This document shows positions 39,489 through 45,745 of a DNA stretch of 45,935 bases, piece by piece. The number at the start of each line of letters is the position of its first letter. The first letter of the stretch is position 1. Origin of the DNA: an uncultured Clostridia bacterium (GTDB taxonomy: Bacteria; Bacillota; Clostridia; Christensenellales; CAG-314); assembly GCA_947630455.1 (NCBI GenBank), contig CANRHP010000007.1:1-45935 (forward strand), in the 5' to 3' direction. The notes below the pieces were generated by a model. The model ran no database searches. It was not told where the DNA came from and saw nothing but the letters and a program-made list of their open reading frames with translations. A program made the position numbers and the translations under genes.

Positions 39489-40136
39489 TTATCCGTTGCC
39501 GCCGCCACTCGGGGTGCGTCCACCGGGGAACAATGGGAGTTCAAAATAACCGGAGCAAACTTCTTCAGTATATTCTTGACAGGGCGGAATGATGGCATAG
39601 CCGTAGCTTGGCACAATTAGCTCTACATCCATTGTAACCTTTAGAATTGCCGTCACGCAGCAGTTAATTATGAAGATATAATACGTGACGCCGTCTATCA
39701 CCTGCGTTTGACTGTACTGTCCTTCGGGACTGACAGCGGAAACGCTTGCTTCAATAGTGTAGGGAATAATTGACGGTTCGGGCAAAAACATCACCACATC
39801 CACAGGAACGGTGACGGTGCCCATACCGCTGCCTTCTTCGTTGTTGCTGTCTATGTAAGTAACCTCCACAGGAACCACTACGTCCGCTTGTACCCGACCG
39901 TATTTGGGGCGCTCGGTAAGCCGCTCGACCACAAGATTTTCGATTATACCCTTTGTGGTTGTGCTTTTGGCGCTGACAAAACGAAGCGGGACCGCAGGCG
40001 ATGTCGGGTTGACATCGGAAATACTTACCGTAATCTGTTGCAAAGTAGTTTGCTTGACGCATGCGTCAAAAACTTTTTTACCCTGGATACATATTTTTTC
40101 ACTGCAATTGTTGCCGTCTAAATTGTTTACAGGCAT
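39489..40136 (-). CDS. unknown beta-rich protein, candidate spore surface component
   Basis: This 215-residue protein has no signal peptide. It starts with a Cys-containing part (CSEKICIQGKKVFDACVKQ), continues with a beta-rich body of Val/Thr/Ile strands, and ends in a Gly/Pro-rich tail (PGGRTPSGGGNG). The pattern recalls spore coat or exosporium proteins of clostridia, but I cannot name a family. The ribosome site AGGAGG is strong. The upstream region carries a mother-cell sigma-type promoter, which supports a spore-layer role. This is inference. Confidence 0.6.
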   Translation of the reverse strand: MPVNNLDGNNCSEKICIQGKKVFDACVKQTTLQQITVSISDVNPTSPAVPLRFVSAKSTTTKGIIENLVVERLTERPKYGRVQADVVVPVEVTYIDSNNEEGSGMGTVTVPVDVVMFLPEPSIIPYTIEASVSAVSPEGQYSQTQVIDGVTYYIFIINCCVTAILKVTMDVELIVPSYGYAIIPPCQEYTEEVCSGYFELPLFPGGRTPSGGGNG

Positions 40137-40247: not shown

Positions 40248-40835
40248 TTATTCAAAATCAAAGTGACGGAATCTATCTTTCATGTGCCCGAAGTAAAAAG
40301 TAATCAACTCTCGCGCCTTGCGTTCCAGCAGCTCCTTTGAATCGCCGTTTTTTAAAATTTTGAAAAAGCTTGTCAGGAAACCATTGGCAATCGCTGTATA
40401 GAAATCGGGATTTTCTATTTTATCATCAATTTCAGGAAAAACACTTTGCATCATTTCCTTTATTTTGCCGGAAATAACATCAATTATATAATTTACAAAG
40501 GTATCATAATGAACAGTGTTGCCCTTGCGGATAATCAACAGCTCATCGTTATACTGCATTATAAACGAAATCAGTATTTCGGAGATCTGTTTCATGGTTT
40601 TTTCCGCAAAAGCAAAGTCGTTGTCTACAAACTGTTTTACATTTTCCATGAATGGGTTGATAACGGCGAAATACAGCGCTTCTTTATTTGTGTAGTACCT
40701 GTAAACATTCCCTAAAGAAATCTCGGCATTGTTGGCGATATTGCGTATTGACGCGTCGGCATAGCCCTGTTCCTTAAATTCCTCTACCGCCGCCGCCAGA
40801 ATTCTGTCTCTGATTTCCTTCTTCAAGTACTGCAT
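40248..40835 (-). CDS. TetR/AcrR family transcriptional regulator
   Basis: The 195-residue protein has the TetR N-terminal helix-turn-helix (about 8-55): ILAAAVEEFKEQGYADAS, then IRNIANNAEISLGNVYRYYTN. The helical C-terminal domain for ligand and dimer formation is not recognisable. GGAG precedes the ATG. It has its own sigma-A promoter with an overlapping inverted repeat, so self-repression is likely. No drug pump or other obvious target lies beside it. Confidence 0.9.
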   Translation of the reverse strand: MQYLKKEIRDRILAAAVEEFKEQGYADASIRNIANNAEISLGNVYRYYTNKEALYFAVINPFMENVKQFVDNDFAFAEKTMKQISEILISFIMQYNDELLIIRKGNTVHYDTFVNYIIDVISGKIKEMMQSVFPEIDDKIENPDFYTAIANGFLTSFFKILKNGDSKELLERKARELITFYFGHMKDRFRHFDFE

Positions 40836-40963: not shown

Positions 40964-41698
40964 CTAATAAGCACACTCCAGCAACATTTTGTCAGCCAGC
41001 AATGCGATAAACTCACCATTAGTGGGTTTTTCCGACGAATTGTACACCTTCACTCCGAAAATGTTGTTGATATTTTCAATTTTCCCCCTGTTCCACGCCA
41101 CTTCTATTGCATGACGGATAGCTCTTTCCACCTTGCTCGATGTAGTATTGAAACGACGTGCAATGGACGGATAGAGACTTTTGGTAATAGCATTGATGAT
41201 TGACGGATTGTCTACTGCAAGCTTAATTCCCTCGCGCAAAAATTGGTAGCCTTTTATATGAGCGGGGATTCCCACGCTTACAAAAATATTGCTTATTCGT
41301 TCATCCAACGTTTTTTCCGAAACGCTCTTTTTACGCACCACCTTGCCGCCTAAACGTTCGCCCTCGTACACATTGACGATACGCTGCTCCAACACACTGT
41401 ACTCCACAGGCTTTACAAGATAATATTTTGCGCCCAATTCCAATGCTTTTATAACAAAAACTTCGCTTTTTAGTTCGGATGCAACAATAAATTTTGCATC
41501 TTGATATTTCTCCAATAAAGCGTACCCATCCTCACCGCTCATCACCAATTCTGTAATGACAACGTCGGGCAATTGCTCATCAAGAAAGCGGCGCGCATCT
41601 TTTCCTTCTGCGTCAAACAATATACTGAACTCATCATTTTCCTGCAATTTTTCCTTTAACCCCGGTTGCCCAATCAAGCCTATAGTAATCACTAACAA
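40964..41698 (-). CDS. spo0A: Spo0A homologue with a degenerate receiver domain
   Basis: Spo0A is the master switch of sporulation. The C-terminal half (about 135-244) is very well conserved, including HIKGYQFLREGI, ARRFNTTSSKVERAIRHAIE, WNRGKIENINNIFG and KPTNGEFIALLADK, so DNA binding is expected. The receiver (1-120) is not: where Spo0A has the phospho-acceptor Asp (D56 in Bacillus) the sequence is ITELVM with E50; the acidic pair near residue 10 is replaced by GLIGQPG; the switch Thr aligns with S74; only K96 is kept. The protein may be active without phosphorylation. The start is TTG at 41698 with AAAGGAG close by; GTG at 41692 is an alternative. Confidence 0.93.
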   Translation of the reverse strand: MLVITIGLIGQPGLKEKLQENDEFSILFDAEGKDARRFLDEQLPDVVITELVMSGEDGYALLEKYQDAKFIVASELKSEVFVIKALELGAKYYLVKPVEYSVLEQRIVNVYEGERLGGKVVRKKSVSEKTLDERISNIFVSVGIPAHIKGYQFLREGIKLAVDNPSIINAITKSLYPSIARRFNTTSSKVERAIRHAIEVAWNRGKIENINNIFGVKVYNSSEKPTNGEFIALLADKMLLECAY

Positions 41699-41782: not shown

Positions 41783-41789
41783 AGTCGAA
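41783..41789 (+). promoter_or_regulatory. near-consensus 0A box upstream of spo0A
   Basis: AGTCGAA differs in one base from the Spo0A site TGTCGAA and lies about 85 bases before spo0A. It could allow self-regulation. No convincing sigma-H or sigma-A promoter was seen between it and the gene. A seven-base match in AT-rich DNA is weak evidence. Confidence 0.3.
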
Positions 41790-44833: not shown

Positions 44834-45745
44834 TCAATTTAGAAGCTGCCCTACCCTATTCATCATTTCCATCTTGTGCTCCATAAGTGAATGAGCGTAT
44901 CTCTGCAATGTGACAGTAGGATTTCGATGTCCTAAAATTTCCGAAAGCGTTTTTATATCCATTCCGATTTCTAAAGCGCGGGTGGCAAACGTATGCCTCA
45001 GGGCATGAAAGCCTTTACGCTCAATATCAAGCTTTTTAAGTAAATGCTCAAAAGACCTTTGGTATGAACGGATCTGCGCTCCATATTCGCTTTTTGCCGC
45101 AACGACAAATCGAGCGCCCGTCTGCCTGCGTACCAGTTTCAAATACCCTATAATCTGTTTAGGCAAAGGTATCACCCTTTCAGAACTTTGCGTTTTTGTG
45201 GTGTCCAACACCTTTATGTAATGCCCGTTTTCCCAACTGTCGCAACAGGATTTCGAGATAGTAGCCGTGCCTTTTTGAAAATCTATATCCTCCCAAGTGA
45301 GCGCGAGCAGCTCACCAATGCGAAGCCCGGTATATAAGGACAGCAATATACCTATGAGGTACGGTGTGTTATTTGCCAATATATACCCTTCTATTTTTTT
45401 CTGTTCGGTCTTGTCAAAACACATAATTCTTTTTTCCCGTGCTTTCGGGCGAACGACGGCATCTGAATACTGCTTGCGTGCGATTCCAAGAGAGACTGCT
45501 TTTTTCAGCGATGATTTTAAAAGAAACAAAATTCCGTTTATTGTGCTCGCCGCCAATTTTTTCTCCATAAGTGCCGCCGAAAATCTTTGTAATCGCACAG
45601 CCGAAAGCTGGTCCGACTCATATTCGCCCAGTACAGGGATAATGTATCTTTCCGTTTGCAGACGATATTTCTTGTAGGTTCTTTCTTTTGTCGAAACCTT
45701 AACATACAACTCCAACCACTCATTCAACCATTCTTTATACAACAT
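44834..45745 (-). CDS. tyrosine recombinase/integrase
   Basis: The 303-residue integrase has an N-terminal core-binding domain (about 1-100) and a catalytic domain with all active residues: R142 in TGLRIGE, K184 in TKTQ, H247 and R250 in HALRH, H273 in LGHRN and Y283. This is the type used by integrative elements. No excisionase, relaxase or phage gene lies next to it in the window, so it is either the edge of an element extending to the right or an orphan. GGAGG precedes the ATG. Confidence 0.9.
   Translation of the reverse strand: MLYKEWLNEWLELYVKVSTKERTYKKYRLQTERYIIPVLGEYESDQLSAVRLQRFSAALMEKKLAASTINGILFLLKSSLKKAVSLGIARKQYSDAVVRPKAREKRIMCFDKTEQKKIEGYILANNTPYLIGILLSLYTGLRIGELLALTWEDIDFQKGTATISKSCCDSWENGHYIKVLDTTKTQSSERVIPLPKQIIGYLKLVRRQTGARFVVAAKSEYGAQIRSYQRSFEHLLKKLDIERKGFHALRHTFATRALEIGMDIKTLSEILGHRNPTVTLQRYAHSLMEHKMEMMNRVGQLLN

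Follow-up and report, generated by a model that had tools for sequence, protein, structure and literature searches.

Phosphorylation of Spo0A is the accepted gate of endospore formation, and helix α1 contributes to the surface contacted by histidine kinases and Spo0B. The specificity residues of B. subtilis Spo0A are printed as NELLEYD in the part of PMC6136694 considered here, which also reports that 47 of 48 spore-formers carry at least one orphan kinase. In the portion of PMC12090719 considered, the 0A boxes at B. subtilis spo0A are modelled as mainly repressive, thus positive feedback through such boxes should not be assumed. A review of pseudo-receivers (PMC12632262), in the sections considered, gives small residues at T+1 and an acidic DD2 for true receivers and a shift to Ala, Ile, Leu or Val at K+2 for pseudo-receivers; its main text contains no occurrence of 'Spo0A'.

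We analysed the spo0A gene of an uncultured Clostridia bacterium of the order Christensenellales. The window, by which we mean the whole stretch of DNA that was analysed, has 45,935 nucleotides, and the genome to which it belongs measures 1.39 Mb in 53 contigs and is 94.21% complete. The gene product has a pseudo-receiver in front of a Spo0A DNA-binding domain. Among the matches listed for open-licence PMC, no title concerned a pseudo-receiver, degenerate, atypical or paralogous Spo0A of this kind, nor a Christensenellales Spo0A of this kind, and searches of the same collection for a 'D56E' Spo0A and for a TetR gene 'adjacent to spo0A' gave no match.

The gene and its receiver

The gene is the minus-strand open reading frame 41698..40964 (features in Table 1); the plus strand of 40964-41698 is not open and a gene on it was rejected. 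We prefer the GTG at 41692 to the TTG at 41698 as the start, because AAGGAG ends 10 nt before the former and only 4 nt before the latter, and because the resulting N-terminus, MITIGLIGQ, aligns with MIKVGLIEQ and MIKIGLIGQ of relatives. Residues are numbered from this GTG, which turns E50 of the preliminary description into E48.

Table 1. Features of the spo0A region, in window coordinates
Feature	Position	Strand	Basis and remarks
TetR-family regulator	40248..40835	-	Downstream of spo0A; profile matches, adjacency kept in the α1-deleted clade
spo0A coding sequence with pseudo-receiver	40964..41692	-	GTG start, 242 aa; profile matches, start comparison
Spo0A DNA-binding domain, residues 126-239	40976..41317	-	Spo0A_C match, structure match, B. 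subtilis alignment
Pseudo-receiver domain, residues 1-110	41363..41692	-	PF00072 match; predicted (βα)5 fold, α1 of 5 residues
GAA codon, E48, phospho-acceptor position	41549..41551	-	Alignment of relatives
G8-Q9 codons, place of the metal-binding acidic pair	41666..41671	-	Alignment; 5-residue α1 deletion directly after
0A-box-like site TTCGACT	41783..41789	-	91-97 bases upstream of GTG; exact TTCGACA there in most relatives

The full-length product scores 214.6 bits against the NCBIfam Spo0A equivalog TIGR02875 (cut-off 200) and 136.3 bits against Pfam Spo0A_C, and its receiver scores 43.7 bits against PF00072 Response_reg (cut-off 30.2). The predicted fold of the DNA-binding half matches the solved Spo0A C-terminal domains 1lq1 and 1fc3. 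When compared to the B. subtilis sequence, the DNA-binding domain is identical at 63 of 114 aligned residues (B. subtilis positions 150-263) and the receiver at 28 of 110. By the sequence model, then, the protein is the Spo0A of its lineage, and its DNA-binding half is textbook, in line with the earlier view. The nearest relatives with a species name are Candidatus Fimimonas merdipullorum (L051, 81% identity) and Candidatus Limihabitans stercoravium (L053, 70%), and the genus member with the closest Spo0A is genome G016 (94% identical).

The receiver was compared in an alignment of 93 rows, made up of 92 distinct Spo0As from the loci and that of B. subtilis. Twenty of these rows come from genomes of the window's genus, g1, and together with L044 (87% identity to the window protein) they form the 21 genus rows; a further 56 (L057-L112) come from outside the 41 genomes of the family. 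In the window protein the acidic pair reads G8-Q9, the acceptor is E48, the switch residue S72, T+1 is E73, the lysine K94 and K+2 a Val. The genus agrees closely, with Gly at DD1 (21 of 21), Gln at DD2 (20 rows, Glu in the other), Glu at the acceptor in all 21 rows, encoded by both GAA and GAG, Ser at the switch (20 rows, Thr in one), and the lysine and a Glu at T+1 in every row. The acceptor Asp and the acidic pair that a phosphorylation-activated Spo0A needs are therefore absent, as the preliminary description had it, and the alignment puts no conserved Asp at the acceptor in any genus row. The residues that a phosphomimic would use (S72, K94 and the Tyr at K-3) are retained. The same description had also counted the change of the switch Thr to Ser as part of the oddity; the Ser is there, but it is ordinary, being found in 52 of the 56 rows from outside the family genomes, and we dropped it from the list. 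Judged by its residues, the protein belongs with the atypical, pseudo-receiver response regulators rather than with the phosphorylation-activated Spo0As. Glu also stands at the acceptor in three rows elsewhere in the alignment (L061, L063 and L081, outside the clade described below), two of them with an intact Asp-Asp pair.

The changes extend to the docking helix. Residues 12-16 of α1, in B. subtilis positions, are missing from 29 of the 93 rows, including all 21 of the genus. A structure prediction had been suggested, and the AlphaFold2 model (mean pLDDT 87.2) keeps the (βα)5 receiver fold with α1 cut to 5 residues (12-16), as compared to 13 (12-24) in the same kind of prediction for L010, a canonical relative from sister genus g3 (mean pLDDT 88.5). 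An intact α1 docking helix with its specificity residues is thus absent. The first three letters of the printed NELLEYD string can be read, by our own mapping, as N12, E14 and L15, which would put them inside the deletion.

A possible objection is that the altered receiver is a sequencing error or belongs to a pseudogene, given that the assembly is a draft of 53 contigs. However, the 21 genus rows come from separate genomes and all share the acceptor residue, the DNA-binding domain is intact, and receiver pN/pS is about 0.18. Synonymous sites are near saturation, so we relied on pN and pS rather than on dN/dS medians. Over 210 genus pairs the receiver has a mean pN of 0.142 and pS of 0.809, and the DNA-binding domain 0.042 and 0.790. 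Seven small sets of Asp-bearing relatives gave receiver pN values from 0.087 to 0.252 at a lower pS of 0.54 to 0.73, a comparable range, which indicates that the pseudo-receiver is constrained about as tightly as working receivers. Taken together, a uniform Glu and purifying selection speak for neither error nor decay, and we give this objection practically no weight.

Promoters, neighbours and signalling partners

We examined 24 spo0A promoters, those of the 21 genus rows and of L052, L011 and L021. In 20 of them an exact TTCGACA is found some 90-105 bases ahead of the start, two more, including that of the window's genome, have a 0A box with one mismatch, and genus rows L008 and L030 have none. 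At a fixed offset the box is exact in 16 of the 21 genus promoters, where the best of 100 shuffles reached 1. The spoIIA operon gives a similar picture. An exact box stands near -83 in 15 of 18 readable genus promoters, the window genome's included (three of the 21 loci were left out since they had no spoIIAA match), whereas 500 letter shuffles averaged 0.58 boxes and never exceeded 4; the shorter TCGACA is present in 18 of 18. None of the 19 genus spoIIE open frames has an exact 0A box upstream, and a box at a fixed place was found in 0 of 15 spoIIE promoters (4 of the 19 loci were dropped as the script did not find the start) and in 0 of 16 genus spoIIGA promoters; all 30 spoIIGA loci examined in the family held a single exact box, in g10. 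Within the window, exact boxes number 5 against 6.36 expected by chance, so there is no enrichment. Based on these promoter sequences, the link from Spo0A to spoIIA seems to be kept, and the rest of the classical regulon is not demonstrably kept. An exact TTCGACA also occurs inside the spoIIE open frame of five of the 19 genus loci (L219, L222, L224, L225 and L229).

The neighbourhood of spo0A differs with the state of α1. A TetR-family gene adjoins spo0A in 27 of the 29 α1-deleted rows, compared to 0 of 63 rows without the deletion, the compared flanks being limited to about 1.5 kb in g3 and g5 and shorter at contig ends, including g10 row L031. It lies downstream on the same strand in 26 rows (in the row L030/L051 about 0.5 kb off and cut by the contig end), and in the one row L017/L048 it is divergent and upstream, still adjacent; the two g8 rows have no adjoining TetR gene. 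Genera g3, g8 and g10 have TetR orthologues (42-53% identity) on contigs different from that of spo0A. By eye, tetR has its own conserved promoter-like TTGC-TATAAT, so we rejected the idea of one clear operon with spo0A, and no palindromic TetR operator common to the spo0A promoters was seen. An identification as RefZ was likewise rejected, with 45.2 against 180 bits for NF037937 and a match to residues 9-98 only. Given the orthologues on other contigs and the apparently separate promoter, any direct role in controlling spo0A is guesswork. Even so, the TetR protein would be the best candidate for a replacement input, its adjacency having presumably arisen or been kept along with the dismantled receiver.

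Other neighbours can be described briefly. spo0A stands beside mraZ, mraW and mgtE, chromosomal genes conserved in the genus. In g8, spo0A is followed on its own strand by a stand-alone receiver-like frame of about 120 codons (L145:1009-1374 and L146:2278-2640), in the place that tetR takes in other genera. The window also encodes, at 39489-40136, a protein without a Pfam or NCBIfam match whose conservation is 77-98% among the genus loci in which it could be located, and, at 44834-45745 near the contig end, a tyrosine recombinase of the phage-integrase family.

The preliminary description had proposed looking for a second Spo0A, for Spo0F and for orphan sporulation kinases. The window's genome, at 94.21% completeness, has one Spo0A_C match, that of the only full-length Spo0A, and no second, canonical copy was found. 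Pfam HATPase_c, HisKA and Response_reg searches of this 94% complete genome revealed no Spo0F-like protein and no orphan kinase. Its seven HATPase_c matches, named by eye, are three histidine kinases, each adjoining an OmpR-like regulator gene, a SpoIIAB beside spoIIAA and sigF, two GyrB/ParE proteins and a MutL, and its four receivers belong to the three OmpR-like regulators and to Spo0A. We extended the kinase survey to relatives in 60 chosen stretches, some ending at a contig end, counting HisKA kinases only. A separate receiver ORF was present in the stretch for 57 of 62 kinase ORFs, and the other five were four hybrids and one plain orphan (L162 in G031). Genome G016 has two hybrid kinases, and long kinase frames occur in further genomes such as G012, G021 and G024. 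In g3, which has a canonical Spo0A receiver, the HisKA kinases are paired in 7 of 7 stretches, so we rejected the missing orphan kinases as a marker of the pseudo-receiver. Their lack makes phosphorylation less likely, yet it does not single out the pseudo-receiver.

Additional forms of Spo0A occur in the family. A short, receiverless Spo0A_C paralogue with frames of 115-195 aa is present in 23 of 25 genus genomes (L132-L142, L149-L151) and was not found in the window's genome or in G012. It adjoins a leuS-like gene in L142 and L151 among six loci inspected by eye, and therefore looks chromosomal and not phage-borne. A paralogue in g7 (L143:2612-3307) has a half-decayed receiver and could be an intermediate on the way to the receiverless form. 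Five family genomes (G001, G004, G011, G012 and G019) gave no match to a full-length spo0A. The TetR gene is missing there too, with weak general TetR matches in G011, G012 and G019 and none in G004 and G001. The contig of G012 ends at the expected place of spo0A, so its absence there may be an assembly gap; G001 has no spo0A at the syntenic place and also lacks SpoIVA, and a DNA search did not find mgtE in G011 and G019. The spoIIA 0A box is still exact in G011, G012 and G019.

Order of the changes and competing readings

A quick tree, from a short search with the catalytic columns left out and with many open forks and several long branches, unites g1, g4, g6, g7, g8, g9, g10 and g11 as a single clade with 31 rows (SH-aLRT 98). 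Two of these rows, from g10, have a full α1, Ser-Asp where the pair should be and Gln at the acceptor position. The remaining 29 share the α1 deletion, none has the Asp-Asp pair, and the acceptor is Asp in 6 of them (g6, g7, g8 and g9) and Glu in 23. Over the 93 Spo0As at least four changes are needed when D and E only are counted, and five with Q. The rows were picked by similarity to the query and the sample is biased towards it, so this count is uninformative on how frequent such changes are in general. The tree suggests, as the likely order, that the pair and part of α1 were lost first and that Asp changed to Glu later, at least four times. Since sister genera with the α1 deletion and without an intact pair keep their Asp, independence from phosphorylation probably preceded the Glu, which would then not be its origin. 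The exact 0A box at spo0A is already present in three Asp-bearing rows of g7 and g9.

From these comparisons we think it probable that Spo0A in this lineage acts independently of phosphorylation and is controlled, at the promoter, through its amount. With the pocket and part of α1 gone, neither a kinase nor a phosphorelay could charge the receiver any more, and the receiver would sit in a state permissive for dimerisation and DNA binding. The activity of such a permissive, uncharged protein would follow its amount, which may be set at the spo0A promoter with its conserved 0A box, by autoregulation, probably with help from the neighbouring TetR protein as a signal-sensing regulator. E48 would be a late change in a receiver already non-phosphorylatable, one that may help to hold the protein in its active form by way of K94 and S72. 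Control may have moved to expression or to a ligand, as suggested earlier; the 0A box kept at spo0A and the linkage to a TetR gene would be in keeping with such a move. A bolder version, in which the phosphorylation input was dismantled stepwise and replaced by a linked TetR-family sensor, making entry into sporulation a ligand-gated transcriptional switch, is in our view rather improbable. The main doubts about the phosphorylation-independent reading come from the missing Gpr and from incomplete genomes.

It had also been proposed that the Glu may mimic phosphorylation. In its strong form, the proposal is that Glu48 by itself keeps the receiver locked in its active form, and that this substitution freed Spo0A from phosphorylation. 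The uniform Glu with its two codons, the Lys in 21 of 21 genus rows and the Ser or Thr in 21 of 21 are what such a lock would call for, and Glu is the commonest replacement in aspartate-less receivers (26% in the part of PMC4395418 considered). However, the same source notes, in that part, that an Asp-to-Glu change alone is often insufficient and names Spo0A, and the Asp of g6, g7, g8 and g9 and the Gln of g10 sit in receivers already altered elsewhere. We consider this proposal doubtful as the origin of independence, and only its weaker part, a Glu that works with the retained S72, K94 and K-3 Tyr, is compatible with the order above. The earlier interpretation as a whole is borne out in finding a pseudo-receiver on the only full-length Spo0A, and falls short in that the Glu holds as a mimic only in part and the lack of orphan kinases is unspecific.

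Two other explanations turn on what the receiver is for. A non-sporulating or reduced-sporulation lineage may keep Spo0A for another or an abbreviated programme, with a relaxed need for signalling having freed the pocket. A search for Gpr (PF03418), with B. subtilis as positive control, came up empty in all 41 family genomes, SpoIIE has matches in 41 of 41 but none above the curated cut-off, no 0A box was found at the genus spoIIGA and spoIIE promoters examined, and the family genomes are small, at 1.0-2.4 Mb. Against this, SpoIIGA is present in 40 of 41 and SpoIVA in 36 of 41 family genomes, the window's genome has spoIIAA-AB-sigF (named by eye), spoIIE, spoIIGA and spoIVA, and the genus keeps the box at spoIIA. 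Gpr is missing as well in g3, which has a canonical Spo0A, so its absence is not tied to the pseudo-receiver, and we see reduced sporulation as an unlikely cause. It is also conceivable, if again not likely, that a metabolite or protein switches the pseudo-receiver at a conserved α4-β5-α5 face. The β4-α5 part is the most constrained of the receiver, with the lowest mean pN (0.081 at a pS of 0.807), as compared to 0.209 at 0.750 for β1-α1 over the same 210 genus pairs, and the stand-alone receiver-like gene after spo0A in g8 would be a conceivable partner. However, some Asp-bearing relatives likewise have a low β4-α5 pN, which dimerisation alone may explain, and no candidate ligand pocket or partner was found.

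Significance and comparison with known systems

A genus and wider clade with an apparently unphosphorylatable Spo0A, and with early genes and 0A boxes kept, would show that the gate of sporulation can be rebuilt. If the lineage forms spores, it would make the decision otherwise than textbook bacteria do, and the sister genera would provide a natural series of intermediates for studying how the gate was rebuilt. There may be a practical consequence as well. A metagenome survey takes 'spo0A present' as the first sign of sporulation potential (PMC11536998, in the part considered), and surveys relying on this presence would need to inspect the receiver.

When set beside the Spo0A of B. subtilis and Clostridia (TIGR02875), the window protein has the same domain order, Spo0A_C sequence and predicted fold (1fc3, 1lq1), and the genus has 0A boxes upstream of spo0A and spoIIA. 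Unlike canonical Spo0A, it has no acidic pair, a Glu for the acceptor Asp, a truncated α1 and a Glu at T+1. In these respects it resembles the pseudo-receivers and aspartate-less receivers described in the parts of PMC12632262 and PMC4395418 considered, with a receiver fold that has lost key catalytic residues, a Glu at the D position, a non-acidic DD2 and a Val at K+2. It differs from the reviewed pseudo-receivers in that its output domain is Spo0A_C and that part of α1 is deleted too. The receiverless phage homologues of Spo0A (PMC10294663, in the portion considered) offer another likeness, that of Spo0A-type DNA binding without phospho-control, here as predicted from sequence, and they resemble the short paralogue of the genus. 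Unlike those phage homologues, the window's Spo0A keeps a receiver under selection and stands beside the chromosomal mraZ, mraW and mgtE.
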